A stretch of 64,000 bases of DNA from the NCBI RefSeq assembly GCF_000312445.1, contig NZ_HE997182.1, positions 842,841-906,840 of the forward strand, read 5' to 3'. Every line of letters starts with the position of its first letter. The stretch's first letter is position 1. Of this stretch, positions 11,345 to 44,930 are shown piece after piece. The position numbers and the translations under genes are program-made. The DNA comes from Phocaeicola abscessus CCUG 55929. GTDB taxonomy: Bacteria; Bacteroidota; Bacteroidia; Bacteroidales; Bacteroidaceae. The notes beneath the pieces are model-generated. The model made no database searches and was not told where the DNA came from. It worked only from the letters and a program-made list of their open reading frames with translations.

Positions 11345-11474
11345 ATTTTTTCTTTTCGAATTCCGCAGTAAAAATAACTTTTCCTTGTTAATCTAAGCCT
11401 TTTCTCTCGTTAAAGTTTCATATAAAAGCGATGATAAAGAACGAAAAAGGATAAGCAGGCTTTTGTTATTTACT

Positions 11475-11482
11475 TATTTTTG
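11475..11482 (+). promoter_or_regulatory. -7 box for the MutS-like gene
   Basis: TATTTTTG. Transcription would start near 11489, which excludes the TTG start at 11463 and points to GTG at 11517. Confidence 0.5.
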
Positions 11483-11516
11483 TAACTTCGCCGTCGAAAT
11501 ACATAAAATAACCTGT

Positions 11517-26642: not shown

Positions 26643-26645
26643 GTC

Positions 26646-28742: not shown

Positions 28743-28902
28743 TAGGTTACTCCTTCCTGTTAAATTTGTTATTTTGTGTTGTGTAACATAAAATATCTCT
28801 TTCCTGCACATACATAGCGAGTTACAGGCTTTGGAAAGAAGAAAAAACGGAATCGGATATGAAAAAGAGTTAAGCGATAGTTGCATCTAAAAAGAAAAAG
28901 GT

Positions 28903-28910
28903 TATATTTG
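28903..28910 (+). promoter_or_regulatory. -7 box for the M23 peptidase gene
   Basis: TATATTTG, about 85 bp before the ATG at 28995. Confidence 0.4.
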
Positions 28911-28994
28911 AACCGAATTTTTGAAAAAAGATAGTCGTAAGCTCGAACTTTATGCCGTTTAGGCGGATTCGTAATAGTGTTTAAAAAGAAATTG

Positions 28995-29888: not shown

Positions 29889-29918
29889 GAAGTTAATTTA
29901 TAACGAAATAGATAAATG

Positions 29919-29947
29919 GCGGGAAAAATTGACTTTTCCGCTTTTTT
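29919..29947 (+). terminator. Intrinsic terminator after the M23 peptidase
   Basis: A stem GCGGGAAAA/TTTTCCGC (one bulged G) with a 6-nt loop, followed by T6, 30 bp after the stop. Confidence 0.65.
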
Positions 29948-29972
29948 ATTTATTCCTCTATGGAAAATTATA

Positions 29973-29980
29973 TAACTTTG
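29973..29980 (+). promoter_or_regulatory. -7 box for the DUF1599-tpiA block
   Basis: TAACTTTG, 17 bp before the ATG at 29998. Confidence 0.55.
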
Positions 29981-29997
29981 TTGCCTAATTAGGAAAA

Positions 29998-30540
29998 ATG
30001 GAAGATACCAATAAACAATTTGAACGAATCATTGCCATTTGTCGGGATTTGTTTATAAAAAAACTGAAAGATTATGGCGCATCGTGGCGTATTATGCGTG
30101 CTACCTCTTTGACAGACCAGATTTTTATCAAGGCTAAACGAATCAGAACACTCGAGACGCCCCATATCGCTATGATTGACGAAGGGATTCGGTCGGAACT
30201 GATAGGTATCATTAATTACGGCATCATTGCGTTGATTCAATTGGAGAAAGGTTATTCCGATACGATAGATATTAGTGCGGACGAAGCTGTACAGCTTTAT
30301 GATAAGTATGCTAAGGAGACGCTTGAATTGATGAAAGCAAAAAATCATGATTATAATGAAGCCTGGAGAGATATGCGGGCATCTTCGTATACTGATTTTA
30401 TATTGACCAAAATTAATCGTACGAAAGAAATTGAAAGTAATAACGGAAGTACATTGATCTCGGAAGGTATAAATGCCAATTACATGGATATGATCAACTA
30501 TGCCGTTTTCGGACTGATTAAATTAGAATTTGGAGATTAA
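29998..30540 (+). CDS. DUF1599 (nucleotide-modification-associated) domain protein
   Basis: A 180-residue helical protein made of two repeats of the same unit. Each begins with a K-x-x-D/H-Y-x-x-x-W-R-x-M-R motif (KKLKDYGASWRIMRATSLTD and AKNHDYNEAWRDMRASSYTD) and ends with a NYGIIALIQLE-like helix. I recognise this as DUF1599, a MazG-like nucleotide-associated family. No enzyme activity is established for it. It overlaps the next gene by 11 bp and belongs to a conserved Bacteroidales block leading to tpiA. Confidence 0.88.
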   Translation: MEDTNKQFERIIAICRDLFIKKLKDYGASWRIMRATSLTDQIFIKAKRIRTLETPHIAMIDEGIRSELIGIINYGIIALIQLEKGYSDTIDISADEAVQLYDKYAKETLELMKAKNHDYNEAWRDMRASSYTDFILTKINRTKEIESNNGSTLISEGINANYMDMINYAVFGLIKLEFGD

Positions 30541-31849
30541 ACACCTTTTGAAACAGCAACAATTACATACGATAGTGAGCTTGTGGACAAATGTATGCCG
30601 CTTTGTATTAGCTGTAGTATTTATCTTTTCAGGTTTTGTCAAAGCAATTGATCCGTTAGGTACGACTTATAAGATCCAGGACTATCTGGAGGCAGTAGGC
30701 TGGGGATCGTTTGTCCATACCTCCGCGTCTTTCTTGTTCGCTCTATTGTTGGCGGTTATCGAGTTCGTTTTAGGCGTTTTCTTGCTTTTCGGTTTCCGGC
30801 GGCGTATTTCTACTGCAGCTGTTTTCGTCGTAATGAGTGTAATGACATTATTGACCCTATGGCTTGTTTGGGCGAACCCAATCTCCGATTGCGGTTGTTT
30901 TGGAGATGCTATTCGGTTGACTAATTGGCAGACACTGGGGAAGAATATATGTTTGTTTGTAGCTGCGGCCTCTGTTTTCAAATGGAGAGACAGGATAAGA
31001 CCCTTGGTGACGAAACGCTTCGATTGGCTGCTGGAGCTCTACGCCTTTCTCTTCGTAGGGGGAGTGATGCTCTATTCGTGGAGGAATTTGCCGATCTTCG
31101 ATTTTCGTCCTTATCGTATAGGTGCTAATATCAAGGCAGGAATGGAAATACCTGAAGGGAAATCTCCTTCGGTTTATGAAACTTATTTTATACTGGAGAA
31201 AGACGGTCGGAAGAAAGAGTTTACCGTAGAGGATTATCCTGACAGTACGTGGACATTCGTCGATTCCAGAACAGTGATGGTCAAGAAAGGGTACGAACCT
31301 CCTATTCGTGATTTTTCCGTCATCCGGCAGGAGGATGGGACGGAGCTGACAGAAGAGATGCTGAATGATAAAAATTTCTCTTTTCTGTTGATCGCTCCTC
31401 AGCTGAATCGTGCCGACGATAGCAGCGTCGATTTGATCAATGAACTCTATGATTATTGCATGGAGTATGGTTATGCGTTTTATTGCCTGACAGCTTCTGC
31501 CGACGAGGATATCCGGTGTTGGAAAGAGCGGACCGGAGCGGAATATCCGTTTGCCATATCTGACGACACGACGCTTCGCACGATCATTCGCTCCAATCCG
31601 GGACTGTTATTGTTAAAAGACGGGACAGTCATCAATAAATGGAGCGTGAATAATTTCCCAGACGAATATCAGTTGACGGACAGATTGGAAAAATTGCCTT
31701 TGGCGCAAATCAACCGATGCAGTTTTCTTTATCGAGTGGTATTGGTTGTTATATGCTTCTTCCTGCCATTGCTTTTCTTCTGTATGATTGACATGGTTTG
31801 GGAACGATATAAAACTATTCAAAATAAACCCTTAAATAAAAACAATTAA
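30530..31849 (+). CDS. BT_3928-like DoxX-type membrane protein with thioredoxin-like C-terminal domain
   Basis: A protein of about 439 residues. The N-terminal half has four or five membrane helices of DoxX type ([20 protein letters not shown] to a conserved SDCGCFGDA). The SDCGCFGD Cys pair is also seen in methylamine-utilisation MauE-type proteins. After a fifth helix, the C-terminal part holds a thioredoxin-like fold without a CxxC pair, and a last membrane helix ([18 protein letters not shown]) near the end. Start TTG 30530 overlaps the previous gene; internal GTG/TTG starts are possible, and there is no ATG before the first helix. A membrane redox role is plausible but unproven. Confidence 0.82.
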
Positions 31850-31850
31850 A

Positions 31851-32609
31851 ATGAGACGAAAAATTGTAGCAGGCAATTGGAAAATGAATATGAACCTGCA
31901 AGATGGTGTGGCTCTCGCCAAAGAGTTGAACGAAACTTTGAAAGTAGAAAAACTCCGTTGCGGCGTGGTCATCTGTACTCCGTTCATTCATTTGGCAAGC
32001 ATTGCATCATTCTTGGATCAAGAGATTATTGAACTGGGGGCGGAAAACTGCGCCGACAAAGAAAGCGGCGCTTATACCGGAGAGGTATCTGCCGAGATGG
32101 TCAGGAGCACCGGAGCTCATTATGTGATAATAGGGCATTCGGAACGTCGAGAATATTATCACGAAACGCCCGAGATATTGAAAGAAAAGGTACGACTTGC
32201 ATTGAAACAGGATTTGAAGGTGATCTTCTGTATCGGAGAGAGTCTGGCGGAACGCGAAGCTGGCAGACAGAACGAAGTGGTCAAAGCGGAATTGGAAGGC
32301 AGCGTGTTCGATCTGACCGCAGAAGATTTCGCAAAGATCATCATTGCGTACGAACCCATCTGGGCTATTGGTACCGGCAAGACGGCGACGGCCGACCAGG
32401 CGCAAGAAATCCATGCATACATTCGCAGTACGATTGCGGACAGGTATGGCAAAAAGGTCGCAGAAGAGACCACGATCCTCTATGGGGGTAGCTGCAAGGC
32501 CGGCAATGCTCCCGAATTATTCGGGAAACCGGATATCGATGGCGGGCTCATTGGCGGCGCCTCTTTAAAGGTAGCCGACTTTAAAGGGATCATCGATGCT
32601 TGGAAATAA
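31851..32609 (+). CDS. tpiA: Triosephosphate isomerase
   Basis: A 252-residue TIM-barrel enzyme that interconverts dihydroxyacetone phosphate and glyceraldehyde 3-phosphate in glycolysis. The catalytic Lys11 is in VAGNWKMNM, the catalytic His in [12 protein letters not shown] and the catalytic Glu in [15 protein letters not shown]. The phosphate-binding [10 protein letters not shown] and [10 protein letters not shown] are present. The start is 1 bp after the preceding stop, so it is part of the same operon; a terminator follows at 32628-32660. Confidence 0.97.
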
Positions 32610-32627
32610 TATTCTTTGTACCCTAAT

Positions 32628-32660
32628 GCAGTGAGTAAGAGAGACCTGCTCACTGCTTTT
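32628..32660 (+). terminator. Intrinsic terminator after tpiA
   Basis: A perfect 8-bp stem GCAGTGAG/CTCACTGC with a 13-nt loop and T4 tail, 18 bp after tpiA. It lies inside a possible N-terminal extension of the next gene and supports the shorter start at 32682. Confidence 0.75.
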
Positions 32661-32681
32661 AATCGTTTAAACAGAAAGAGT

Positions 32682-33131
32682 ATGAAATGCTTAGTGGCCA
32701 TCGTCCTGTTGTGTTTTGCAGTAGTTTCTAAGGCGCAGAACAGTATTTTAGTCGAATTGCAGAAGAACGTGCCGATGCAAGGTACGGTTACCGTTCATCA
32801 AGATCCGGCTATTACCGCATTGATCGGTACGGTACCGAAATATGAGGAAGGAAAAAGAGAATTGAAAGCGCGCGGATACAGGGTACAAGTTTATGCCGGA
32901 AACAATTCTCGCGATGCGCGCAGTCAAGCTAACAGCATGGCGAAACAGGTAGAGGCCGAATTCCCGGAACTACCGGTCTATGCCTATTTTCGCCCTCCTC
33001 GCTGGCTTTGTTGCGTCGGCGATTTCAAAACCATCGAAGAAGCCGATGCAGTGATGCGTCGCTTGAAGGCTACGGGACATTATAAAGAGGTATCTATTGT
33101 ACGCGAACAGATTAATATTTCATGGGAATGA
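32682..33131 (+). CDS. SPOR domain-containing exported protein
   Basis: A 149-residue secreted protein with a signal peptide ([19 protein letters not shown]). Its C-terminal SPOR domain ([20 protein letters not shown] to [17 protein letters not shown]) binds denuded peptidoglycan at division sites or elsewhere in the wall. Start ATG 32682 is chosen because the signal peptide begins there and a terminator precedes it. folE overlaps its 3' end by 4-10 bp. In related genomes the same tpiA-SPOR-folE order is kept. Confidence 0.88.
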
Positions 33132-33727
33132 TCACAGATGAGTTGGCGCATCCGGAATGGACGGAGGAGAAGATCATGGCGTTGATGGAACATTATGCGG
33201 CCATATTGAAACTGTTAGGGGAAGATACGAATCGCGAAGGACTCTTGAAGACGCCGGAGAGGGTCGCCAAGGCCATGCTTACATTGACCAGAGGTTATGA
33301 ACAGGATCCGCACGAGATATTGATGACTGCCCGTTTCAGGGAACCTTATAGCCAAATGGTGATTGTGAAAGATATCGATTTCTTCTCCCTCTGTGAACAT
33401 CATCTGATTCCTTTCTATGGAAAAGCCCACATCGGGTATATCCCCAACGGCTATATCACGGGCCTCAGTAAGATTGCCAGGGTGGTAGACGTGTTCTCTC
33501 ACCGGCTTCAGGTGCAGGAACGACTGACTCTTCAAATAAAGGAATGTATCCAACGGACATTACAACCATTAGGCGTAATGGTTGTTCTGGAGGCTAAGCA
33601 CATGTGTATGCAGATGCGAGGAGTGGAAAAGCAAGGGGCTGTTACTACGACTTCTGATTTTACCGGCGCGTTTAATCAGGCTAAAACTCGTCAGGAATTT
33701 ATGAATCTGATACGAGGAGAGCATTGA
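33122..33727 (+). CDS. folE: GTP cyclohydrolase I
   Basis: A 201-residue cytosolic enzyme that converts GTP to dihydroneopterin triphosphate, the first step of tetrahydrofolate and also the source for QueD at the left of the window. The zinc Cys and His are in [19 protein letters not shown], and the second zinc Cys is in [10 protein letters not shown]. Conserved [19 protein letters not shown] and TSDFTGAF close the active site. ATG 33122 and ATG 33128 are both possible; the second gives an ATGA junction with the SPOR gene. No folE-type riboswitch is evident. Confidence 0.96.
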
Positions 33728-33974: not shown

Positions 33975-34351
33975 TGCATATTTCTTTTATGGTAATGCTG
34001 CGCTTCACCGTCTTATCGTTGCCCGTGAACACGCCTTTGAACGGCTCTTTGGCCTTCACGAGGCGTTTCGTGGCGGCTTTGTTGTAGATGGCACGCAGGC
34101 AGGGAGCGCATGTAGCAGGAGGAGGTGTTGGGGCATACGCCACGGTCTTGCAGCCACCGCTCGTAGCTTCGCACATTGTCGGCGTTGAAGACGGATAGCG
34201 GCACGTCCGTGCCGCCGCTGAAGCGAATGAAGGAGCGCACTGCTGTACGGTAATTCTCGGCTGTGGATGCACTTACGCCACAGGTTGCCTGTTCGGCACA
34301 AACGGAAAGCATCGGAACCGGCTTCCGCTTTTTCCCGGCAGGCTGCTCCAT
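33975..34351 (-). pseudogene. Truncated, frameshifted tyrosine recombinase (integrase)
   Basis: The minus strand shows the SAM-like core-binding domain of a Bacteroidales phage-type integrase: ASTAENYRTAVRSFIRFSGG and DNVRSYERWLQDRGVCPNTS. A frame change follows, and the sense resumes as LRAIYNKAATKRLVKAKEPF and VFTGNDKTVKRSIT. The shift coincides with a tandem CAGGCAGG at 34096-34103 (a 4-bp duplication). Sequence similarity ends near 33990, before the catalytic domain (no R-H-R-Y residues). It is a dead remnant that marks the left side of the segment running to about 44.3 kb. Confidence 0.72.
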
Positions 34352-34552
34352 GCCCGGCTCACCTGTACTGCCCGCCTACCTAAAACTTGGTAGAAAATAG
34401 ATCATCTCTTGATTCGTTTAAGTGATTATGCAGGCAAAAATAAACGTTTTCCTTACATGGACGATGTGCAACTGCGAAAGTGAGTGTGAGCTTTCGGTGT
34501 TTATCACCCTTTCAGGGAAACGTTTTATCTTATGGAGAACAAGCGGCGCTTG
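34352..34552. other. Spacer between recombinase remnant and DUF4857 gene
   Basis: No gene. Similar words AAACGTTTTCC (near 34443) and GGGAAACGTTT (near 34516) form an imperfect inverted repeat about 85 bp across, of unknown role. Confidence 0.3.
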
Positions 34553-35587
34553 TCAGAAGAAGTGCGGCTTGACGTACTTATCCGTGTAGGAGGTGAAGTG
34601 CAGTCCGGGCATCGGGCCGTCGGAGGTCGGGATGCGCATCGAGTCGATGAGCGAGAAGTCGTCGGCAGACAGCGCATAGTATTCTTCCGCCTCGGGCGTT
34701 GTGACGCAAACCGTCCAGTCGAACATATTGCCGAAGATGGTGAGCTTGTCCGTCTCCGGATTGTAGGCGGGTAGCCCGGTCTTTATCACTTCGTAGGTCT
34801 TGTTCATCAATACGTAGAAGGAGTGGCCGGCATCGGTGAGGTACCCCAGCGTTCGGCGGTCGGAGAATTCCGTGATGAAGAGGTATTCGGCGTGCAGCCC
34901 TTCGGGCAGGGGGATGGAGCGCACGTAGGGACGGCCCCACACCTGCTTCAGGTGGAACAGCTTGCCCGCATCATCCAGAATGAGGTATCCTTCGTCGTAT
35001 TCTTTCCGGGGGTTGGGGTTGCCGGCTATACGAGAGGCGGGAAAGCGGAAGCCTTTCTTCACAAGCGCCTCCGTAAACTTCGCGCTTTTCTCCCTGTCTA
35101 CGCTGTTACTGTCCATCACGACGAACTCAATGCCTCTCCGGGTGATGCGGAACACATCGTCCGGCATGGCCAGGTCCACCCGCTTCGACATGCTCTCCAA
35201 CAACGGATACAATGGGACGGCGGCGGTGTTGACTTCCGACGCCGATACGCGGAAGTTGAAGTTGGTGCGCTGCACCTCGCGCGGCGTGACGGGCACCCCC
35301 TTCAGGCTGTCGGGGAAGCGCTCGTCGGCCATCAGTTGCCGGACGTAGAACAGGGGCAGGATGCTGTCGGTCTGCTCCTGCGTATAATTGTTGCCCGAGC
35401 GGTCGCGCCGTATCATGCCGGTGGTCTCGTCGTAGCCTATGGAGAGAAAATCGCCTATCACGCAGCTGTATAGGGCGAAAGGCGTGCGCGAAGGCTTGGA
35501 GGCAAAGAAAGCGTAGCACCACGGCAGTTGCCAGAGGAGCAACAACGCCACCGTGAGGTATAGGAATAGTTGACTAAAACGTTTCAT
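34553..35587 (-). CDS. DUF4857 domain-containing membrane-anchored protein
   Basis: A 344-residue protein with one N-terminal membrane helix (LFLYLTVALLLLWQLPWCYAFF) and a large extracytoplasmic beta-rich domain (about residues 50-344). I recognise it as DUF4857, a Bacteroidota family found beside ABC transporters. The domain ends in YTDKYVKPHFF, and no catalytic motif is apparent. The start at 35587 is chosen because the hydrophobic helix begins right after it. It is the last gene of the acquired operon, 37 bp after the permease gene. Its likely role is a periplasmic partner or sensor of the transporter, by context only. Confidence 0.78.
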   Translation of the reverse strand: MKRFSQLFLYLTVALLLLWQLPWCYAFFASKPSRTPFALYSCVIGDFLSIGYDETTGMIRRDRSGNNYTQEQTDSILPLFYVRQLMADERFPDSLKGVPVTPREVQRTNFNFRVSASEVNTAAVPLYPLLESMSKRVDLAMPDDVFRITRRGIEFVVMDSNSVDREKSAKFTEALVKKGFRFPASRIAGNPNPRKEYDEGYLILDDAGKLFHLKQVWGRPYVRSIPLPEGLHAEYLFITEFSDRRTLGYLTDAGHSFYVLMNKTYEVIKTGLPAYNPETDKLTIFGNMFDWTVCVTTPEAEEYYALSADDFSLIDSMRIPTSDGPMPGLHFTSYTDKYVKPHFF

Positions 35588-35624
35588 CTCTTTGTTATGC
35601 TTTAATGATTGAATGGGGGTGAGG

Positions 35625-36293
35625 TCAGTCTTGCCTGCCCGCCTTGAAGCGCAGGACGGAAATCCACGAGAGGCTGACGCACAGCAGGCTGTAGACGACA
35701 AGCCACGGCAGAAAGCCGTTGTATGCCTCGGGCTCAGGGGAGAGGAAGAAGATGCGTAGCAGCAACAGCGTCACCGCCAGATTGAACACCCGCCGTTTCC
35801 AGGTAGGCTCCAGACACACCCATGCCGTGAGCGAATAGGCGCAGAGGCCGGCCACGTACCAAGTGGCGGCCGTCAGCAGGATGCGCGTGTAGAGCTCGGA
35901 GGCAAGCACGCCCTGCAGATAGACGAACATCAGCAGGAAGTTCGCGGCAAAGCAGGCGGTGAGTGCCAGCAGGCCGTAGAACAGCATGAGGTTTATCATC
36001 CGCAGTTGCGGATAGGGCAGGTGCAACGTCAGTTTCAGGCATTTGTGATACATCTCGGGGATGAACTGCACCAATGCCAGCAAGATGCCCGCCAGCAGGG
36101 GGATGTATTGCAGCAAGTCCACGAAGATGGCGTCGCGCATCAGCATCACTTCCCAGACGTGGGCGGCGCCTTTCAGTTCGACCACGCGATTGACGCGCAG
36201 CATGCAGTATCCGGCAAAGCCCGTGGTGACGAAGAAAGCGAGCAGCAGGTACCAACGCGTCTTAATCCATTCTTTATAAAATATAGCGTTCAT
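35625..36293 (-). CDS. ABC transporter permease-like membrane protein
   Basis: A 222-residue integral membrane protein with six predicted helices. It begins with MNAIFYKEWIKTRWYLLLAF, the K-E-x-x-K-x-R start typical of ABC-2 type permeases. The first large loop (VVELKGAAHVWEVMLMRDAI) is extracytoplasmic. It follows the ATPase gene after 7 bp, so the two should form one transporter. It is short for an exporter half, and there is no clear substrate clue. The start at 36293 is used rather than a 20-codon extension that would overlap the ATPase gene. Confidence 0.75.
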   Translation of the reverse strand: MNAIFYKEWIKTRWYLLLAFFVTTGFAGYCMLRVNRVVELKGAAHVWEVMLMRDAIFVDLLQYIPLLAGILLALVQFIPEMYHKCLKLTLHLPYPQLRMINLMLFYGLLALTACFAANFLLMFVYLQGVLASELYTRILLTAATWYVAGLCAYSLTAWVCLEPTWKRRVFNLAVTLLLLRIFFLSPEPEAYNGFLPWLVVYSLLCVSLSWISVLRFKAGRQD

Positions 36294-36300
36294 TTCTTTC

Positions 36301-37188
36301 TTAATATTTCCCGGTGAGGCCGATGAAGGCGTCTTCCAGATTGACGGTTTCACATTTCAGTTGACTGTAGGGCACTTGCAGGGCGGCGAACCGAGCTTCC
36401 ACTTCTTGCCGAGTGAGGAAGGAGAATGTCTCCAGCGTGTTGCGTATCACGGCGGGATGATGGAAGTCCGCATCCTCCGGCAAGGTATAGCCTTCGGGCA
36501 CGGTGCAGGTGTAGCAGCGTATCGTGTCGAGCAGTTCCCTGACGGGTTGTTGAATCAGGATGCTGCCGTAGTCCATGATGATGCAGTCGTCTATCAGGCG
36601 TTCCATGTCTTGAATGATGTGCGAGGTCAGGAAGACGGTTTTGTTCTCCGAGCGGGCATAGTCGCGCAGGTAATCTACGAAGAGACGGCGGTAGCCGGGG
36701 TCGAGCCCTAACGAGAAGTCGTCCAGCACCAGCAGTGCCGGGTTCTGTGCCAGAATGAGCCCCAGTGCCACTTGCGACCGCTGTCCGCACGACATACGCG
36801 AAATGCGTTGTCCGGGGGCTACTTTCAGCTTGTTCATCAAGTCGTAGTAGGCCTCTTTCCGCCACTGCCCGGGATAGAAGGCGGCATAAAACCGCTCAAT
36901 CTCGCGGATGGTCATGAACTGGTATTGCACATGTCCCTCGATGAGCAGTCCGATATTTCGGCGCAAGGCCGGCGGCATGGTCTGTATGTTCTCTCCGAAG
37001 ATGAAACATTGTCCCGAACGGGGTGTCAGGTAGCCGCTCAAGATGTTGATGGTGGTGGTCTTGCCCGTCCCGTTCTTTCCCAACAGCCCCAATATGCGCC
37101 CTTGCGGAACGCTGAAGCTAAGATTTTCGTATATCAACCGTTTGCCGTAGTAGTGCGTCAGGTTATTGCATTCAATGATATTTTCCAT
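36301..37188 (-). CDS. ABC transporter ATPase with atypical catalytic motifs
   Basis: A 295-residue nucleotide-binding protein. The Walker A is standard (GLLGKNGTGKTTTIN). The signature reads MSCGQRSQ instead of LSGGQ, and the Walker B region LLVLDDFSLGLDP has Asp where the catalytic Glu normally stands and FS where P-T/S is usual. The switch His is in FLTSHIIQDMERL. Such changes usually slow ATP hydrolysis. A C-terminal extension of about 80 residues after the core resembles that of CcmA/gliding-type ATPases. It pairs with the permease downstream. The product may be a gated or slow transporter, or an assembly factor, rather than a fast pump; that is inference. Confidence 0.83.
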   Translation of the reverse strand: MENIIECNNLTHYYGKRLIYENLSFSVPQGRILGLLGKNGTGKTTTINILSGYLTPRSGQCFIFGENIQTMPPALRRNIGLLIEGHVQYQFMTIREIERFYAAFYPGQWRKEAYYDLMNKLKVAPGQRISRMSCGQRSQVALGLILAQNPALLVLDDFSLGLDPGYRRLFVDYLRDYARSENKTVFLTSHIIQDMERLIDDCIIMDYGSILIQQPVRELLDTIRCYTCTVPEGYTLPEDADFHHPAVIRNTLETFSFLTRQEVEARFAALQVPYSQLKCETVNLEDAFIGLTGKY

Positions 37189-37225
37189 TGATTATTATAA
37201 GAAATCCATCAAGCCTCTCCCCCGG

Positions 37226-37370
37226 CCCATAGGGAGGGGAGAGGGGAAAGAGTAGAAAGGAGATGAAATAAAAAAGTTCATATTACATATTATACATATT
37301 GCCCTTGCAAGTATAAAATGCTCCTTGCAGGGATTAAACAGCCCAAACTCCCTCCTCCCCTCCCTATGGG
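37226..37370. repeat. Inverted-repeat element (MITE-like) between ABC and PepSY genes
   Basis: A perfect 14-bp inverted repeat, CCCATAGGGAGGGG (37226-37239) and CCCCTCCCTATGGG (37357-37370), encloses an AT-rich core of 117 bp. The flanks (CCTCTCCC) extend the symmetry imperfectly to about 165 bp. No gene is inside. It sits in the only gap over 100 bp within the operon and could be a small mobile repeat or an attenuator. Confidence 0.65.
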
Positions 37371-37392
37371 ACAGGGGACGGTGGGAGAGGTT

Positions 37393-38028
37393 TTAGAGAA
37401 AGAGAAACAACAGCGGAATCAATATCCCCGCCGCCAACTCTATTCCTCCGCGTCCCCACAACCCTTTCGGGCCCTTCAGCATGATGAGGCCTGTAAACGT
37501 GATGAGAATAAGCCCTACCGCGAACAAGTCGGAGAAGTGTGTCCACCAGCTGCCGGGGTTATAGTGCAGCTTGGTCAGGGTGCTCAGCAATGGGCGACGT
37601 GTCAGTTTCTCATACACCACATGGTGGCCGGCAAGGTCTATCATCACGTTGGAGCCTCCTTTCAGAAACACCTTCATCTCTCCCTCTTTGGGGAAGTAAT
37701 GCTTGGTGTAGTTGTCTGCTTCGTTGATGGGTTCCAGCAACTTCAACACATCTTCTTTGCGGATGTCGGCTTGTGCTGGCAAGGCTTCGGTCAACTTGTA
37801 TTCCTGCCGTTCTATCGAGTAGTGAGGGTTGAAGCTGCCGCGGTGGTTCATCGCAATGCCCGAAACGGCATATATCAGCACCATCCCCGAGAAGAAGAAC
37901 GACACGTCGCGGTGCACCAGGCGGCACCACTTGCGCAGGAGCGTGCCGGCTTTGCCTTGGTTGTTGCGTTGCCGCCCACCCTTTGCTTCCGGCATGTTCT
38001 CTTCCACCGACGGCTTACTGAATCTCAT
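37393..38028 (-). CDS. PepSY-associated transmembrane protein
   Basis: A 211-residue membrane protein of the PepSY-TM family, related to the ferric-reductase-like or iron-uptake membrane proteins found with siderophore receptors. One helix (VSFFFSGMVLIYAVSGIAM) follows the RLVHRDVS start. A periplasmic PepSY-like domain comes next (EALPAQADIRKEDVLKLLEP), then the H-x-x-P-G-x-W-W motif in LHYNPGSWWTHFSDLFAVGL and two final helices. The His residues of the helices could bind heme. It overlaps the preceding lipoprotein gene by 14 bp; an internal ATG at 37995 would avoid that. Confidence 0.83.
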   Translation of the reverse strand: MRFSKPSVEENMPEAKGGRQRNNQGKAGTLLRKWCRLVHRDVSFFFSGMVLIYAVSGIAMNHRGSFNPHYSIERQEYKLTEALPAQADIRKEDVLKLLEPINEADNYTKHYFPKEGEMKVFLKGGSNVMIDLAGHHVVYEKLTRRPLLSTLTKLHYNPGSWWTHFSDLFAVGLILITFTGLIMLKGPKGLWGRGGIELAAGILIPLLFLFL

Positions 38029-38602
38029 AGCCGGTGGCCTGTATGTAGTAGAAAGACAGATAGGCTTTCCCCTCCTTTGCCTGACGGTCGGCTATCTTGG
38101 CACGGAAGTCGGCGATGCGCGCTTCGGGTGTGTTGGCCGTTTCGTTGCGTGCTTTCTTCTCGGTGCTGCATCCGCCTTCACCCTCTTCGCTGTGCTTTTG
38201 GGCAGAAGCTTCTTTCAGTTGAGATTCCCATTGTTGCAGGTAGGCTTCGTCCACACGCTGCTCCATGAGCGTGCCTTTCACACGGACGATGCTGTTGACG
38301 CATTTCGTGTCGAACGAACCCAGTTCGCCGGCTTCCACGCGAATGGTCTGCGTATCGTCGCTGCCCATCAGGAAAATCTTGGTGGCGCCGTGCTTGCAGG
38401 CATGTGTACACACCCCTTCGACGGTCACTTCCTTATTGGTCAGTACCTCGGCATCGGCCAGCAAGCTGTCTATTCCGAGTACGTCCGAAGTTTGTTCGGC
38501 GGTTGTAGAACTGTCCGCATTCTTGACTTGCTTGTTGCCACATGCGGTGAATGTGAGTGCTGTTGCAGCAATGGCTGCGATGAGAATGTTCTTGGTTTTC
38601 AT
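38015..38602 (-). CDS. OB-fold-like lipoprotein
   Basis: A 195-residue lipoprotein (signal peptide ending in LTFTAC, Cys21 lipid-modified). The middle part, VLTNKEVTVEGVCTHACKHG to NSIVRVKGTLMEQ, has the beta-strand pattern of an OB-fold (tRNA_anti/YgiW-like) domain. It holds Cys-x-x-x-Cys (CTHAC), which could bind a metal or thiol. An acidic/basic helical tail follows and contains GGCSTEKK. It overlaps the PepSY gene, so the two are made together, and sits after the DUF6850 barrel gene. Function is unknown; a periplasmic carrier role is a guess. Confidence 0.75.
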   Translation of the reverse strand: MKTKNILIAAIAATALTFTACGNKQVKNADSSTTAEQTSDVLGIDSLLADAEVLTNKEVTVEGVCTHACKHGATKIFLMGSDDTQTIRVEAGELGSFDTKCVNSIVRVKGTLMEQRVDEAYLQQWESQLKEASAQKHSEEGEGGCSTEKKARNETANTPEARIADFRAKIADRQAKEGKAYLSFYYIQATGYEIQ

Positions 38603-38657
38603 TGTTCTTTTGTTATTAGTTAGTATAAAAATGTTGTTTGCAAATGGTTAAACAGGC

Positions 38658-40190
38658 CTACAGATACACTCCGATGCCTGCTTGGAATGAACGGTTCTTC
38701 TCGTGGTTGGCGTATAGCGTATGTTGCCACCCGACTTCCGCGTAGCCCAAATTCTTTCCGATGTATCGAGACCATCGCAGAGAGAAGCCGTATGTCGTAC
38801 GGCTGCCGCTCAGCATCTCGAGGTTCTGTTGCAAGACGGTCAGGGCATACGGGTGCGCCGTTTGCCCGGCGATGTTCAGCGAGGCGTCTATCTTTTCTTG
38901 GTAAATGCCGTAAACACGTGCGTACAGCAGGCTTTTGCTCCATTTATGGGTCGAAGCAAAGTCCAGCGAAGCGCTCCACAGACTGTACTTCATGCTCTTG
39001 GCAGGCGTGTGGTAGGTGTCTTCCCGTTGCAGATACCCGATGGCAGGTTGCAGGCTCCATCGCCACTTCTCCGTCTGTTCCTGCTCATAACTGCCGCTTG
39101 CCGTTCCGTGCAGCGCCTTGCTGCCGAACTGCTCTACGGCGGAAATATGCGGATAGATGTGGTTCACTGCGTCGCCGTAGAGGTTTTCCGTCCCTTTCCG
39201 CTCGTTGTAGGCTACCGATGCCTTAAGGCCGAAAAACCGGCGGGCATGCCGTAAGAAAGTCCGGGTTACCTCGCCTTGCAGGTTGTTTTCTTTCAGCTCG
39301 TTTAGCGTGAGGTCGTTAGACTCGGGCAGCATCTTCTCGTAGAAAGAATGACGATAATGGAAGCTACCGCTCCATCTGCCATCGGCTTGTACGGGCAGCA
39401 GGTTGATTCCTGCACCGTAGCTGTGTCCTTGATAACGCACGTTTGTGCGCGTACCGTCGAAGCGGGTGTAGCTGTTCCCCAATCCCGTAAGGTGGAACGT
39501 CTTCGATACCCCCAGTTCGTTGTAGTAGGCCAGAGAGCCGTTTTGCTTGTATTTGCGCGCTTCGGCGGACAGAGCCACCGCATACGGGGCCCGGATGCCG
39601 TAAGAAGCGCCGACTTTGGCCTGCAGGTCGGCCGCCTTATTGTTGGGGCGAGGGTCTATGTCGCGAAACTCTTGCACCGCCCGGTACGAGAATTCCCCTC
39701 CGAATGTCCACCGTCCGGTTGCAGCGGCATATCCGCCTCTGAAGAAGTAGATTTCCGACTTCATATCTCCGCCTATGGTGTCGGCGGCAACGTACGGGTA
39801 GAGCAGTTCATAGTCCGAACTTTCGTTCCACTGCACATTCCGGCGCGTGCCGTTCCGGTAGTAGGCATCTCCCCATATACGCGATTTCTCGGACGTGCAT
39901 ACGTACGAGTCGCCCGCCACAAGGAATCCTTTCCATCCGTCTCCCAGTTCCGCCTTTGTCGCTCGGCTTTGTCCGTTCCACTCGCCCGTTGCCCCGAGGG
40001 TGGAGAGCGAATAAGATTGCCGATAATAATTCAAGGCCGGATTAAGGAAAGGACGTGTAAGGAACTCCCGTTTGGCCGCGGAGTGCATAAATGCCCTTTT
40101 CTGTATGAAAACCGTGTCCTCCCCTTGAGCCCAAGAGGAGGATACGGTCATCGATAGGAATAGAAGTGAAGATATGAGCCCTTTCTTCAT
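38658..40190 (-). CDS. DUF6850 family outer membrane beta-barrel protein
   Basis: A 510-residue outer membrane protein with a signal peptide (MKKGLISSLLFLSMTVSSSWAQ). It is almost entirely made of alternating beta strands with aromatic girdles, and the last strand ends in SFQAGIGVYL, typical of barrels. I recognise it as DUF6850. Features are YRQSYSLSTLGATGEW and repeated GY/YxR patterns. It has no plug, so it is not TonB-dependent. It lies between the DUF4876 gene and the OB-fold lipoprotein. Its job is unknown; a passive pore or a surface partner for the receptor is possible. Confidence 0.8.
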   Translation of the reverse strand: MKKGLISSLLFLSMTVSSSWAQGEDTVFIQKRAFMHSAAKREFLTRPFLNPALNYYRQSYSLSTLGATGEWNGQSRATKAELGDGWKGFLVAGDSYVCTSEKSRIWGDAYYRNGTRRNVQWNESSDYELLYPYVAADTIGGDMKSEIYFFRGGYAAATGRWTFGGEFSYRAVQEFRDIDPRPNNKAADLQAKVGASYGIRAPYAVALSAEARKYKQNGSLAYYNELGVSKTFHLTGLGNSYTRFDGTRTNVRYQGHSYGAGINLLPVQADGRWSGSFHYRHSFYEKMLPESNDLTLNELKENNLQGEVTRTFLRHARRFFGLKASVAYNERKGTENLYGDAVNHIYPHISAVEQFGSKALHGTASGSYEQEQTEKWRWSLQPAIGYLQREDTYHTPAKSMKYSLWSASLDFASTHKWSKSLLYARVYGIYQEKIDASLNIAGQTAHPYALTVLQQNLEMLSGSRTTYGFSLRWSRYIGKNLGYAEVGWQHTLYANHEKNRSFQAGIGVYL

Positions 40191-40209
40191 TTTGCCTTCG
40201 GAGAATAAT

Positions 40210-41505
40210 TTATTCGTGGAACTTGAAATAAGGATCCGCTTTCTGCTCAGGCAGGAAGTCCGCGGACGAGTCGTTGGTGTCCTGCAGGGTGATGCCTGAA
40301 AGCACCTTGCGACGCACGCTCTTGCCGTAGCGGGTCTTGTCGCTGTTAACTTTTCCGCAGTACGTCCAGCCTCTGTCCAAAGCAGGCGATGTTACGTTCC
40401 ATTCGTATTCGCTTTCTACACTGAGGTTGACGGCATCCAACACCCATTTGTTAGGAATCTTGTAGCCTTTGGAAGGTCCCATTTCGTACACGTTTCCGTT
40501 GATAATCATGTTGTACTTGTATTCGTAAACATAGTCTTTCAGATACTGCTCGGCAGAGAGCTGGTTGTTCTCGTCGTCGCCCAGACGTGCCAGCACGAAC
40601 GCCTTGAAGCCGCGGTTGTGAGGGCCCCAGATGGTGCGCGTGTAGCAATAAATCTTTTCCATGTTGGGTACAGGGGTATCAGTATCTGTGAATTTCGGGT
40701 TGGTACTTTCGTCATACCATTCGAAGTCGGCTTTCGTCAGGTCGAAAGAATTGGAGTTGACGGTAGTATGATCCTTACCGATGTCACACAGCAACAGAGA
40801 CTTTCCCGGGGCAACCATGATTTTACCTCCCAGCGGGACGCGGTAGATAGCGTCGGTGGTGAAGGCTTCGTTCATAATGTCCGGAGAATAGGCATACTTG
40901 CTTACCGTGAGGAATGCAGACTCGGCGATGGTGAGTCCGTCTGCGCAGAGCGTATCGCCCGAGTTGTTGTAGATACGTATGTATTTGTCGCCGTTGTATT
41001 GCTTATTCTCCGGGGTTTCTGTTCCGGTGAAGAAGATTTCGGCAATGACGAAGCTTCCTCCCTCTTTGCTGTCGTTATATACATAGCCCGTAAGGTTGAG
41101 CGGGGTAGCGGCAGAGGCTTCGGTCAGAGTTACCGACTCTTTATAGGCCCGTATCTTGGAATGGATGGTCTCTCCATTCAGGCGGTAGGTCAGAGAACCT
41201 TCCATGCTGATGGTGTATAGCCCTTCCGGCACACTCACGGCGATGCTTACAGTAGAAGAAGAAAGAACATTGGCACGAGTAGCGGGTTTCACGACGGTGG
41301 TCTTCTCTCCCGTATTGATGTTCTTCAATACCAGTTCCTGAATGCCGATAACGGGATTCTGATTCTGCAACTCGGCAGGCGCGTTGAACTGCATGGTCAC
41401 ATTGGCCATCTTTACACTGTTGTCATCGTCACTGCTACAAGCGGTGAACGCCAAACCTGCAATCACTGTCATGCAGATTACATAAAATACTCTTTTCATT
41501 TTCAT
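40210..41505 (-). CDS. DUF4876 surface lipoprotein
   Basis: A 431-residue lipoprotein (lipobox AFTAC, followed by SSDDD, a lipoprotein export-like acidic run that often marks surface exposure in Bacteroidota). It carries an N-terminal Ig-like beta domain and then a lamin-tail-like domain (FVIAEIFFTGTETPENKQYN, EYYIRIYNNSG-type). I recognise DUF4876. It is encoded just after the TonB-dependent receptor gene, as a SusD-like or surface-receptor lipoprotein would be, so it probably caps or feeds the receptor. No SusD helical repeats are present. The ligand is unknown. Confidence 0.82.
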   Translation of the reverse strand: MKMKRVFYVICMTVIAGLAFTACSSDDDNSVKMANVTMQFNAPAELQNQNPVIGIQELVLKNINTGEKTTVVKPATRANVLSSSTVSIAVSVPEGLYTISMEGSLTYRLNGETIHSKIRAYKESVTLTEASAATPLNLTGYVYNDSKEGGSFVIAEIFFTGTETPENKQYNGDKYIRIYNNSGDTLCADGLTIAESAFLTVSKYAYSPDIMNEAFTTDAIYRVPLGGKIMVAPGKSLLLCDIGKDHTTVNSNSFDLTKADFEWYDESTNPKFTDTDTPVPNMEKIYCYTRTIWGPHNRGFKAFVLARLGDDENNQLSAEQYLKDYVYEYKYNMIINGNVYEMGPSKGYKIPNKWVLDAVNLSVESEYEWNVTSPALDRGWTYCGKVNSDKTRYGKSVRRKVLSGITLQDTNDSSADFLPEQKADPYFKFHE

Positions 41506-41536
41506 CTTCTTTTGATTTTCTGTTTGATTAGGATTA

Positions 41537-44308
41537 TTATAGTTTTAGTTTCAGCTCCATCCCGAAATAGGGACTCGCTGCTGTTCTTCGTATGAGGTAT
41601 CCGTTTCGCGTGTAGTCGGGCACATAGTCCAGAATACGGTTGGCGAAGAGTGCGATGGACATATTCTTGCCGAACTCTTTGGTGGCTTTGAAGTTGACGT
41701 ACATATAGAAAGGCGTGATCATCTTCTCGAACAAGGCCGAGGAACGAGCAATGACCAAGTGCTGCTTGTAAGTATCCTTTTTGTCTTCCTCGGTGTAGGG
41801 CGATACCTTTCCTGTGGCGGCATCCATGTAGGCGATGGGAGTGCCGCTTGCTCTGGGGCTCTGCCTGCTTTGAAACCACATGCACTCCGAAGTGGCGGAA
41901 AGGGTCAGGCCTAATTCCTTTAGATAGGTATCTACCGTGAAGTTGGTGTTGAACTGCCCGTAGTGAGAACTGTCGTCTGTTTCGTAGATGCCCACGTACT
42001 TGTCGCTCAGAGCTACGCCGTTTACTACCGCGGAAACGCTTTTGGCTATGGGCTGACTGTTCTCGTAGATGGTGTACAGCCATGCTCCGTTCACGGTGAA
42101 GCGGGTGTTGAGTGCCTTGAAGCGTTCGGTGGAAAGTTGGAACTCCACTCCTTCTTTCTGTGTCCGGCTGCCGTTTCCAGTGTAAGAGTAGCCTCTCAAG
42201 ATGGTTCTCATCTCATAAGGCAGGTCTTCCAGAGCCGGCGGGCCGGTCAGTGTAGAGCCGTCTATCTGGCTGGAGTCGTACACCTTGTATTCGTACGGAG
42301 AATAGGTCGGGATATGGCGGAAGCCGGAATTCATCCGTTCGTGGAAGTAAGTGACGGAAAGCATGTTCTTGCCGTATTCCAGACTCAGACGCACCTCCTG
42401 CTTGAAGTTGCGAGCCGGCTTCAGGTCGTAGTTAGTAGGGTTCACGATGTAGGTACGCAAGTTGATGCGCTTGTATGCGGGGTTGGCATGCCAATAGTTC
42501 AGCTGCGTGAAGTCCATGTAGATGTTGTTCGGATGGAGTTGCGAGAGGGTAGGCATCAACAGCAGCCGTCCCATTCCTCCGCCCAGTCTTATTACCAGCC
42601 TTTTACATCCGAGGCTAATGCTCGGAAATCGCCATTGCACGTTGATACGCGGATCGAGGAACATCTTTCCGCCTAAGGCGTACTGCTTGTCGAGATTTAG
42701 CATCATGTTGCCGTTTATCCCGGCTTGCACTTCCAATGAATGGTCTCCTATGGGGATGTTGACATTGTCCTCTACGTACACATGCCACAATTCGGAGGCA
42801 GGAATGTCGCTGTATTTGCGCGGACGCAGGAAGCTGCTTCCGGGGTCGAGCGGACGTGCCGGGTCGTAGATTTGTCCGCCTCCGAAATTCTTGTCGTACC
42901 TGAAGGTGCTTCCGACCAACAGTTTGTGACCCGCCAAACCGGTCTGCATCCCGAACTCCGCAGCCAACTTGACGTATAAGTTCAGCGGCTTGCCGTCCAC
43001 TATGGTATAAGCAGTGTATTTGTAGGGCAGTATTTCCGCATCATGTTCACCCGCTTTCATGTGGGTGGGCACTGCCCAATCACGGTCCAGCTGGATGAAT
43101 CGGGCGCGCTTTATTTCGTCCCACGACATGCCGGCAGAGAGGTCCAACTCCAATTTCCGGAAGGCTTTCCCTTTGGACGCCATCCATTCCAGCAGGCTGT
43201 GCCATTTCCCGCTATGGAAGCCGGAACGGTAACTCTCTTCTTTCAGCCTCTCTATGTCGGGGTCGTTCTTCACATGGTCGATGTTTCCGGAATAGCTTAC
43301 GCCGGTTTCCCACTTCAAGGCATGCCCGTCGTGCAATGTCCATTTCTTATGGAAGCGTGCGGAGGTAGTGATTCGTTTATACAAGTCGTAACGGTCGCGC
43401 GGGTCGTTCTGCGCATTCAGAAAGTCGATATCGACCGAAAGCCCCATGTCCTTGTTTTTCCATTCCATGCCTTTGTTGGCCGAAAAGAGTTTGCTGCTTT
43501 GGTCGGCCTTGAAGCGCACCTCCAGCGGGGTGGCTTTCTGCTTGCGTTTGATGATGACCACTCCGTTTGTCAGGTTGTTGTATTGCACGGAGGGAATGCC
43601 ACGGACGATTTCCACGCTTTCTATATTGTCGGTGGGGATGTTACGCATATCCACGCCGGCGTTCACGGCATTGTATCCGTCGAAAGAGGTCGTGATGTCC
43701 GAGGCGACGCGTTGCATGTTGGAGGCGGTACTGACGGGTATGCCGTCCATCACGAATTGTGTGCCCAAAGACCCGGTGCTGTAGTCCGAATCGCCTGTTC
43801 CCACTTCGCGCAGGTGGATGATGTTGGCCCCGCCCATGTTCGGCGTGCTTGTGCTTCCGCCCGGCAGCAACGCCAGCAGGTCGGTGAAGCTGGAGGGTTG
43901 CAGGTGCTCCATGGCCGTGCGGTCTATCTTCGAAGCGCTGGTGATGCCTTTCGATTCGGAGGCGGTGACTACCACCTCGTTCAGCGTGGTGGACGAAGGC
44001 AGCAGCCGGAAGTCTCGATGGATGTCTCCGTCTATCCGGATACGTTTTTCCTGTGTTTCGTATCCTATGTAAGAGATGATGAGCAAGTAATCTCCCGTCC
44101 CCAGACCCCGAATGCCGAACTTGCCGTCCGCATCGCTGGTGGTTCCGTAGAACTTGCCTGCATCGGACTTCAGCCGTATCGTGGCGAAAGGCAATACATC
44201 CTTGCTTTGAGCATCGAAAACACGACCGCTGAAATTATGGGATGATTGTGCCGAACAGAGGATACAGATGAATGACAGAAGACTTATCAGTGAGAACTTT
44301 CTCGACAT
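41537..44308 (-). CDS. TonB-dependent outer membrane receptor
   Basis: A 923-residue receptor. A signal peptide (CILCSAQ) is followed by a carboxypeptidase-regulatory-like domain (FSGRVFDAQSKDVLPFATI). The plug comes next, with the NEVVVTASESKG TonB-box-like segment and VESVEIVRGIPS. A large barrel ends in SPYFGMELKLKL. It lacks the SusC-type STN region and the long SusC barrel, fitting classic iron, heme or vitamin receptors rather than SusC. It starts the acquired operon, with a -7 box and nested inverted repeats upstream. Energy would come from a TonB system such as the one at 23.3-25.4 kb. Confidence 0.9.
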   Translation of the reverse strand: MSRKFSLISLLSFICILCSAQSSHNFSGRVFDAQSKDVLPFATIRLKSDAGKFYGTTSDADGKFGIRGLGTGDYLLIISYIGYETQEKRIRIDGDIHRDFRLLPSSTTLNEVVVTASESKGITSASKIDRTAMEHLQPSSFTDLLALLPGGSTSTPNMGGANIIHLREVGTGDSDYSTGSLGTQFVMDGIPVSTASNMQRVASDITTSFDGYNAVNAGVDMRNIPTDNIESVEIVRGIPSVQYNNLTNGVVIIKRKQKATPLEVRFKADQSSKLFSANKGMEWKNKDMGLSVDIDFLNAQNDPRDRYDLYKRITTSARFHKKWTLHDGHALKWETGVSYSGNIDHVKNDPDIERLKEESYRSGFHSGKWHSLLEWMASKGKAFRKLELDLSAGMSWDEIKRARFIQLDRDWAVPTHMKAGEHDAEILPYKYTAYTIVDGKPLNLYVKLAAEFGMQTGLAGHKLLVGSTFRYDKNFGGGQIYDPARPLDPGSSFLRPRKYSDIPASELWHVYVEDNVNIPIGDHSLEVQAGINGNMMLNLDKQYALGGKMFLDPRINVQWRFPSISLGCKRLVIRLGGGMGRLLLMPTLSQLHPNNIYMDFTQLNYWHANPAYKRINLRTYIVNPTNYDLKPARNFKQEVRLSLEYGKNMLSVTYFHERMNSGFRHIPTYSPYEYKVYDSSQIDGSTLTGPPALEDLPYEMRTILRGYSYTGNGSRTQKEGVEFQLSTERFKALNTRFTVNGAWLYTIYENSQPIAKSVSAVVNGVALSDKYVGIYETDDSSHYGQFNTNFTVDTYLKELGLTLSATSECMWFQSRQSPRASGTPIAYMDAATGKVSPYTEEDKKDTYKQHLVIARSSALFEKMITPFYMYVNFKATKEFGKNMSIALFANRILDYVPDYTRNGYLIRRTAASPYFGMELKLKL

Positions 44309-44333
44309 TGTGTATTTATATAATTGGCGGATG

Positions 44334-44341
44334 CAAAATTA
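44334..44341 (-). promoter_or_regulatory. -7 box for the acquired receptor operon
   Basis: The minus strand reads TAATTTTG, 26 bp before the receptor ATG at 44308. Confidence 0.5.
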
Positions 44342-44369
44342 TGTAAATATAAAAGGATGGTCAATCGCT

Positions 44370-44440
44370 ATAAATAGGTATTTCTTGACTGCGGATGGCA
44401 GGCTTACGGTCAAGAATCGAGGAGAACGATACCTATTTAT
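44370..44440. promoter_or_regulatory. Nested inverted repeats upstream of the receptor promoter
   Basis: ATAAATAGGTAT (44370-44381) pairs perfectly with ATACCTATTTAT (44429-44440). Directly inside, TTCTTGAC (44382-44389) pairs with GTCAAGAA (44409-44416). The left arm starts about 43 bp upstream of the expected transcription start. It could be a pair of operator sites for a dimeric regulator, a cruciform, or an attachment-type site. No regulator gene is adjacent. Confidence 0.6.
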
Positions 44441-44606
44441 GGTTATATCTATACCTGTCGCTGACTTAAAAGTGTGGCTATTAGACTTATGTCAATACTT
44501 GCACCCATGCTGTAAGTAATATTATCTTCTACGATTAATATGGACGTCATAGTCTTTGGTCTTTGTGTTTTGTTTCTTTTGAGGAAGGAAAAGAAGTTCA
44601 TCGAAA

Positions 44607-44930
44607 ACGTGGCCGGATACGTCCCATAACGTGTCTGGATACGTCCCGGACCCCGTCGGCGAGATTGTTTATCCCGTCGGACAGGTGGTACCACCTATCC
44701 GGATATGTCCGGAACGTCAAATTTGAGGTCGTCTAACGTGTCCGGCGGGATTCGGGACGTCGAATTTGAGGTCGTCTAACGTGTCCGGCGGGATTCGGAA
44801 CGTAGACGGCAGGTTACCCAACGTATCCGGCGGGATTCGGAACGTCGAATTTGAGGTCGTCTAACGTGTCCGGCGGGATTCGGAACGTAGACGGACAGGT
44901 TACCCAACGTATCCGGCGGGATCCCTGCCC
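44607..44930. repeat. Phased 21/22-bp degenerate tandem repeat array 2
   Basis: An ACGT core recurs at 44714, 44736, 44757, 44779, 44800, 44821, 44842, 44864, 44885 and 44907, always 21 or 22 bp apart; earlier copies at 44607-44641 are spaced 10-12 bp. At a higher level it forms units of about 43 bp in two types, one with AATTTGAGGTCGTCT and one with CAGGTTACCCAACGT. They are arranged A-A-B-A-B and separated by CCGGCGGGATTCGG. The period and words match array 1 at 3042-3319. Confidence 0.85.

Follow-up and report, generated by a model that had tools for sequence, protein, structure and literature searches.

The window analysed here is a stretch of 64,000 nucleotides from Phocaeicola abscessus CCUG 55929 (contig NZ_HE997182.1, positions 842,841 to 906,840), and the subject of this study is an operon of eight genes within it, which encodes a TonB-dependent receptor with its envelope partners and an ABC unit ending in a DUF4857 protein. 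All eight reading frames are intact and lie on the minus strand, from the start of the receptor at 44308 to the end of DUF4857 at 34553, in agreement with the sequence-only reading, which had listed eight genes running in a single direction. The genes are as follows (positions are those of the window; E is the expectation value):

41537-44308, minus strand: TonB-dependent receptor, 923 amino acids, gene 1 of the operon (TonB plug, Pfam E 6.2e-10, and CarboxypepD_reg)
40210-41505, minus strand: DUF4876 lipoprotein, 431 amino acids, probably surface-exposed (Pfam E 5.9e-62)
38658-40190, minus strand: DUF6850 protein, 510 amino acids, putative outer-membrane barrel (Pfam E 7e-100)
38015-38602, minus strand: OB-fold (CTHAC) lipoprotein, 195 amino acids, with HxCxH formed by H67, C69 and H71 (AlphaFold2 model, structural matches, conservation)
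37393-38028, minus strand: PepSY_TM_like_2 membrane protein, 211 amino acids (Pfam E 3.5e-15, conservation, hydropathy)
36301-37188, minus strand: ABC transporter ATPase, 295 amino acids (Pfam ABC_tran E 1.1e-22)
35625-36293, minus strand: ABC-2-like permease (hydropathy, generic ABC-2 matches in relatives, fusion to DUF4857)
34553-35587, minus strand: DUF4857 protein, membrane-anchored, with a predicted periplasmic beta-rich domain, final gene of the operon (Pfam E 2.5e-113, AlphaFold2)

The identities proposed earlier for the receptor, DUF4876, DUF6850, PepSY, ABC ATPase and DUF4857 proteins are all backed by Pfam matches. Judging from the translations, the ATGs at 35587 and 36293 are likely the start codons of DUF4857 and the permease, respectively.

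Conservation of the gene set and its parts

In a sample of 247 Bacteroidales genomes, DUF4857 was found over the cut-off in 30, DUF4876 in 41 and DUF6850 in 39 (47 counting weak matches). DUF4876 accompanies DUF4857 in 29 of its 30 genomes (Fisher 4.5e-27) and DUF6850 does so in 28 (Fisher 1.0e-25), both over the cut-off and in tests that treat genomes as independent of kinship; all 39 genomes with DUF6850 also have DUF4876. Gene order was compared over 56 DUF4857 loci, 24 from named genomes and 32 others, with several from one genome. The order ATPase, permease, DUF4857 is found in 54 of them, and the remaining two end at contig edges. An identical order of all eight genes is found in 13 of the 24 named-genome loci and in 3 of the 32 others; the receptor is present in 21 and 28, the OB-fold lipoprotein in 23 and 19, and the PepSY gene in 22 and 11, respectively. 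These results show that the eight genes constitute one system and a co-inherited unit; the single system claimed earlier had been made to depend on co-occurrence of the families in other genomes, and both this and the recurring order were found. The system is widespread but patchy, DUF4857 being present in 11 of 61 genomes of the window's genus, in 18 of 201 sampled in the family and in 15 of 395 in a sample of the phylum.

Elsewhere the outer-membrane block and the inner-membrane block have changed places or point away from each other, and the receptor-DUF4876-DUF6850 block is also found without the ABC part (e.g. L068, L069, L071, L072). At L068, a HEAT-repeat protein (9902-12061) directly follows this set. 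A second, diverged set is present in the window's own genome (L067 5568-12955, contig C2), with genes for an OB-fold-type lipoprotein, DUF4876, a TonB receptor, DUF6850 and a peroxiredoxin in one direction; an ABC unit was not found within the 19 kilobases (kb) read there. Large secreted-type proteins are encoded between the two blocks of the operon at five loci (L096 3008-7195, L035 7683-9425, L036 7447-9309, L037 8336-10774 and L040 7217-9289). They carry Flg_new_2 or DUF6383 domains, some of them weak matches, and are possible substrate-capture proteins.

The constant order of ATPase, permease and DUF4857, together with a natural fusion, supports the assignment of the three proteins to one predicted unit. 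One genus outside Bacteroidales has, in three genomes, the permease and DUF4857 as a single open frame of 662-680 amino acids with the permease at the N-terminus, and this may reflect one event. By hydropathy, the permease has six hydrophobic segments and the short-form DUF4857 of the window has one, while the three long-form DUF4857 proteins inspected have three each. The earlier label of an ABC-2-like permease rests on generic Pfam matches of relatives (ABC2_membrane_4 in 1 of 39 and ABC2_membrane_2 in 1 of 39); the window protein itself has no Pfam match. For DUF4857, Pfam gives no match besides DUF4857 itself; the AlphaFold2 model (mean predicted local distance difference test score 78.1) shows a helix at the N-terminus and a domain rich in beta structure, and its best VIA-align rows are propellers, a modest match with Z 9.1, root-mean-square deviation (rmsd) 3.7 and 151 aligned residues. 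Kinship of the permease and DUF4857 to NosY and NosD could not be demonstrated.

It is important to consider where the two lipoproteins reside. Acidic residues after the lipid cysteine are the surface-export signal of Bacteroidota, and at least two of them are present in 39 of 51 DUF4876 relatives and in 0 of 35 OB-fold lipoproteins with a recognised lipobox; the finder uses a crude pattern, and rows without a recognised lipobox (10 of 61 and 8 of 43, respectively) were left out. Because of this difference, DUF4876 is placed outside the cell and the OB-fold lipoprotein in the periplasm. Against solved structures, the DUF4876 profile matches 4q1z (E 3.1e-77), which is titled just 'putative lipoprotein'. 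No close relative by sequence was found there for the receptor searched alone, and no meaningful one for the profiles of the permease, DUF4857, the PepSY protein and the CTHAC lipoprotein.

The CTHAC lipoprotein has nothing above the cut-off in Pfam. Its AlphaFold2 model has a confident OB-fold core, with the signal region and residues 137-155 disordered, and gives structural matches with Z 12.3, rmsd 2.0 and 89 aligned residues. Across 34 relatives, H67 and C69 never vary, H71 is conserved to at least 90%, and the first cysteine of CTHAC is absent in distant members, so the conserved motif is HxCxH. The OB fold suggested earlier is thus borne out by the model, whereas the CTHAC motif has to be redefined. 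A heme-handling role of the CcmE/CcmAB type (OB fold plus ABC-2-like permease) was also considered; despite the OB fold, the lipoprotein has no match to a CcmE profile at E <= 0.1 in Pfam or NCBIfam.

The PepSY protein has three hydrophobic segments by hydropathy, and H39, H62 and H155 are invariant in 23 sequences. It scores 57 bits against PF16357 (cut-off 27), while its match to PepSY_TM PF03929 (E 5.3e-6, 26.9 bits) is below the cut-off of 28.8. The lipoprotein family reaches well beyond the operon carriers, being found in 128 of the 247 Bacteroidales genomes at E 1e-3. We examined 20 contexts outside the operon, a non-random set picked by hand from these 128 genomes (whose weakest match is near E 1e-3) for better-scoring matches and usable contigs. 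A PepSY_TM-like gene lies directly 3' of the lipoprotein gene, in the same direction, in 19 of them (Pfam was run on three of these neighbours), and the sole context without it (L131) also lacks the full HxCxH. The operon therefore contains a lipoprotein-PepSY pair that also exists alone. At L112-L130 this pair stands free amid unrelated genes.

Promoter box and published iron-responsive expression

Two copies of a sequence box were found upstream of the receptor by pattern search:

44364-44381, minus strand: promoter box ATACCTATTTATAGCGAT, 55 base pairs (bp) before the receptor start
44429-44446, plus strand: second copy of the box, facing the first and with one mismatch, 120 bp before the receptor start

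A hairpin before the receptor is attributed to the two facing copies; 3 of 200 shuffles fold equally well (z -2.46), and a search with Rfam at the gathering threshold returned three tRNAs and nothing else. The palindrome ATACCTA-N4-TRGGTAT is common to receptor upstream regions. The box consists of two inverted heptamers with 7-2-7 spacing, which we take to be the arrangement of NarL-type regulators. With up to two mismatches it occurs in 15 of 21 receptor upstream regions, compared with 0 of 21 for the reversed control, a result that is partly circular since the box was derived from these same regions.

The independent test of the box is provided by the other genes that carry it. With a looser pattern, seven exact sites were found in the window genome, 27-57 bp before listed frames, namely those of a C10 protease, a porin, the operon receptor, a hemerythrin protein, a flavodoxin, a methyltransferase and FeoAB. 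The HmuY gene has a site with one mismatch. Allowing at most one mismatch, the pattern gives 14 and 13 rows on the two strands, and its reversed control gives 5 and 5. Exact sites number three in each of B. fragilis Q1F2 and P. vulgatus, one of them at the operon in both cases, with 0 in the controls; the remaining P. vulgatus sites precede porin-like and esterase-like genes (named by eye).

In the window genome, a LuxR-type gene lies 3' of the hemerythrin gene (L135 751-1443 and L144 1558-2157, contig C2 of the same genome, about 131.2-132.6 kb). The palindrome stands 57 bp before this hemerythrin-LuxR operon, and two imperfect copies of it follow the LuxR gene. Comparable hemerythrin/LuxR-type arrangements are PG1236-cdhR and BT_0519-0520 (PMC10434189; here and below, papers are cited for the portions of their text that were available), and the mechanism of CdhR is called unclear in the same paper. 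A CdhR-like regulator would be a candidate reader of the box, and the hemerythrin-LuxR genes are a candidate CdhR-like regulator of the Bacteroidales under iron limitation.

Published expression data agree with this picture. In B. thetaiotaomicron, BT3625-3633 are induced 36.7-128-fold without iron, with values of 14-19 in the colitis column, and PG1019-1022 of P. gingivalis are up 20.8-214.5-fold (PMC10434189). PG_1019 and PG_1020 rise together with hmuY and cdhR in a PG_0686 mutant (PMC10101095). BT3625-BT3633 is also among the closest systems in print: matched by its annotated gene list, it unites DUF4857, an ABC ATPase, PepSY, DUF4876 and a TonB receptor in one iron- and colitis-induced locus, but it holds a gene annotated as fimbrillin, and the paper, in its available portions, offers expression and no mechanism (PMC10434189). 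In searches of the open-licence literature, no mention was found of DUF6850 or of PF16149, and neither the ABC unit with DUF4857 nor the OB-fold partner with HxCxH was found described. The earlier characterisation of the system as poorly described is thus apt for its mechanism but not for its expression. The receptor-plus-PepSY logic is already known, and the system itself is in print as an expression signature.

Proposed function and its alternatives

We propose, with a probability of roughly 55%, that the operon serves the iron-starvation-induced, TonB-dependent uptake of a ferric complex, whose iron is freed by reduction in the periplasm. The box shared with known iron genes and the published induction of BT3625-3633 make iron the likely cargo, and the substrate would most likely be a siderophore, or a chelate of similar kind, that another organism produces. 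In the first step, surface DUF4876 would capture the complex or present it to the receptor, with DUF6850 as a putative outer-membrane partner. The receptor would then, as suggested by its family, carry the complex into the periplasm, where the PepSY protein and the HxCxH lipoprotein may work as a two-part unit for reducing Fe(III) and keeping hold of the metal once it is free. The ATPase, permease and DUF4857 would form an ATP-driven unit with a periplasmic domain, working, in whichever direction the ABC proteins transport, in iron handover or in removal of the emptied carrier. Finally, Fe(II) may enter through FeoAB, the gene of which has the same promoter box.

The reductive step is consistent with related proteins and with neighbours in other phylogenetic groups. 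Most PepSY_TM proteins whose function is known reduce ferrisiderophores in the periplasm and have heme-binding histidines (PMC13038864, PMC13001220), and three-helix PepSY-like proteins have been linked to iron reduction (PMC8238504). The loci read outside Bacteroidales are L163-L171 (nine) and, with the fusion, L160-L162 (three). Six of the nine encode a membrane polyferredoxin that carries two 4Fe-4S motifs (two cut by the locus end), FecR, which speaks for iron, adjoins the receptor at four (two by Pfam, the rest by blastp), and the M16 metalloprotease family is found near the ABC unit at six (L163, L164, L165, L166, L167 and L170; one by Pfam, the rest by blastp). The PepSY gene is present at L165, L166 and L169, as well as close to the fusions of L160 and L161, and weak lipoprotein matches were obtained at L165 and L166. 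Metal uptake with a reductive step, previously considered plausible, thus gains support from the box shared with iron genes, the induction of BT3625-3633 and the redox partners (PepSY pair and polyferredoxin). In L160 (310-2980) and, by sequence, in L161 (10807-13366), lipoprotein CbiX-like chelatase genes lie on either side of the PepSY gene, in clusters that adjoin the fused permease-DUF4857 and TonB receptors.

Several of the known systems resemble parts of the operon. XusABC has a TonB receptor, a surface lipoprotein and a PepSY inner-membrane protein and is iron-regulated, but its lipoprotein is DUF4374 rather than DUF4876, and its three genes include no ABC unit, DUF4857, DUF6850 or OB-fold lipoprotein (PMC13142918). 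DUF4374 has no match at E <= 0.1 among the eight operon proteins. The PepSY_TM reductases FoxB, HiuABC and CrpH share a PepSY-type membrane protein with conserved histidines in an operon with a TonB receptor (PMC13038864, PMC13001220), whereas the present operon has a short three-helix PepSY form that is paired with the OB-fold HxCxH lipoprotein.

The cargo could instead be heme. In this alternative, which we regard as unlikely, the receptor imports heme or takes it from heme proteins, the HxCxH lipoprotein relays it and the ABC/DUF4857 unit passes it on. The box does precede HmuY, and in a hemin experiment the P. gingivalis DUF4876 gene has log2 -5.42 beside -6.11 for HmuY, read as lower expression under hemin excess (PMC10470040). 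The secreted-type proteins encoded within the operon at L035, L036, L037, L040 and L096 would also fit, as would the CbiX-like genes on both sides of the PepSY gene near the transporter fusions (L160 and, judged by sequence, L161), although these genes lie on the opposite strand. However, HmuY, the CobN-like HmuS and other known heme families were not found among the eight proteins in Pfam and NCBIfam, a separate HmuY is encoded elsewhere in the window genome, and, with polyferredoxin and FecR as neighbours, ferric chelates fit no less well.

Copper, or another soft metal, is very improbable as the cargo; in this reading the receptor and PepSY protein would work like CrtA/CrpH, and the lipoprotein and ABC unit like a NosL-NosDFY relay. 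One PepSY_TM protein has been tied to copper, that of B. pertussis, which is encoded in an operon with a TonB-dependent copper transporter and supports heme-copper oxidases (PMC13038864). HxCxH could bind Cu(I), and the two polyferredoxins searched from outside Bacteroidales are NosR/NapH-like with an HMA/MerTP-like part. The NosDFYL(R) copper system comprises an ATPase, an ABC-2-type permease, a periplasmic partner and a metal-site lipoprotein. The operon resembles it in having an ATPase, a putative permease of this type, a predicted periplasmic partner and a putative metal-site lipoprotein, and its relatives outside Bacteroidales add the NosR-like polyferredoxin. It differs in that DUF4857, which follows the permease or is fused to it, takes the place of the periplasmic partner and has no NosD match in Pfam, and in its regulation by iron. 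It is this iron regulation that ranks copper low, as seen in the induction of BT3625-3633 by iron depletion (PMC10434189) and in the box common to FeoAB, flavodoxin and HmuY. In addition, the HMA-like part has no further CxxC, and use of heme-copper oxidases is not known from Bacteroides.

Another option is that the two blocks have separate jobs, the receptor and PepSY protein importing iron and the ATPase-permease-DUF4857 unit exporting an emptied siderophore, a toxic by-product or a lipid or protein into the periplasm or further out. Most ABC-2-type permeases work in export, and the receptor-DUF4876-DUF6850 block occurs without the ABC part at the four loci named above. On the other hand, DUF4857 loci without a receptor in the stretch read are rare (3 of 24 named-genome loci and 4 of 32 others, several cut by contig ends), and both blocks lie in one operon and hence share the box. 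We judge such a division improbable. A further, tentative possibility, drawn by analogy, keeps the export-type unit within the metal pathway and would make the system a new type of machine for acquiring iron: the permease-DUF4857 unit with its putative periplasmic propeller could do mechanical work on a metal relay in the periplasm, in the way proposed for NosDFY and copper. Its reduced iron would come from the PepSY/HxCxH pair, which would be a general redox module also found as a stand-alone gene pair in Bacteroidales without the operon.

Returning to reductive uptake of a ferric complex, it is important to point out the observations that weigh against it. An import role of the ABC unit is something we infer, and the exporter character of most ABC-2-type permeases speaks against it; the propeller call for DUF4857 is weak, with Foldseek TM-scores of about 0.2-0.3. 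By hidden Markov model (HMM) search, the PepSY gene is missing in 21 and the lipoprotein in 13 of the 32 DUF4857 loci outside the named-genome set, as compared with 2 and 1 of the 24 named-genome loci, so the redox pair need not sit in the operon. As for the box, several of the one-mismatch sites fall within genes, the other two B. fragilis sites precede no recognised iron gene, and the second DUF4876/DUF6850 locus (L067) has no box within one mismatch. Finally, B. thetaiotaomicron requires xusAB for ferric enterobactin (PMC13142918), and its counterpart operon therefore does not supply this siderophore.

Origin of the segment and significance

The operon was described before as acquired, more GC-rich (guanine plus cytosine) than its surroundings and starting at a dead recombinase, and the present data bear this out on each count. 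In 1-kb steps, the GC content is 0.48-0.59 at 34-45 kb, compared with 0.39-0.51 in all earlier steps and 0.36-0.46 in the eight steps just after. The eight operon genes also stand out at third codon positions, with a GC of 0.64-0.81, as against 0.41-0.59 for 13 genes upstream and 0.47 for the SusC gene that comes next. The two features concerned are:

33990-44448, no strand assigned: segment common to B. heparinolyticus, at a different genomic site there (blastn, three pieces of 86.2%, 89.9% and 91.9%)
34013-34351, minus strand: N-terminal fragment of a tyrosine recombinase, 112 amino acids, a neighbour outside the system (Phage_int_SAM_5 E 1.2e-9)

The genes around the insertion point (window 25705-33714) have a DNA identity to B. 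heparinolyticus of 63.5-73.3%, and the GTP cyclohydrolase proteins of the two are 80% identical. In B. heparinolyticus the segment is flanked by other neighbours, and an Abi_2 gene and a tyrosine recombinase of 365 amino acids stand at the matching place (L111). The ATPase, permease and DUF4857 of 22 of the 24 named-genome loci and of the window were used to build a tree (L079, which is cut, and L093, with the permease below the score limit, were dropped). It places the window beside B. heparinolyticus with support 100/100, grouped with B. cellulosilyticus and B. timonensis and apart from P. vulgatus, P. sartorii and P. faecium. B. fragilis falls with the latter three, and exchange of the operon therefore seems common. 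With a DNA identity above that of the core genes, a different site and an agreeing tree, the sequence comparison shows that the operon was acquired from a relative. Among exact 11-mers common to both segment ends there is one direct match, which lies outside both ends, and no integration site is therefore claimed. Between the operon and the SusC-type gene that follows, positions 44606-44922 hold GC-rich tandem repeats (22, 43 and 85 bp).

We regard the system as an accessory one, patchy in distribution, spread by horizontal transfer and probably devoted to iron. Siderophore production is not known from gut Bacteroidota, and iron acquisition bears on their survival in the inflamed gut (PMC13142918). 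B. fragilis without xusAB still uses ferric enterobactin, and the available text of that paper states that BLAST found no paralogous locus (PMC13142918). Since the operon is present in two B. fragilis genomes, it is, as a match at the species level, a candidate for the missing ferric-enterobactin route. The promoter box, in turn, provides a concrete DNA site for the response of Bacteroidales to iron limitation.

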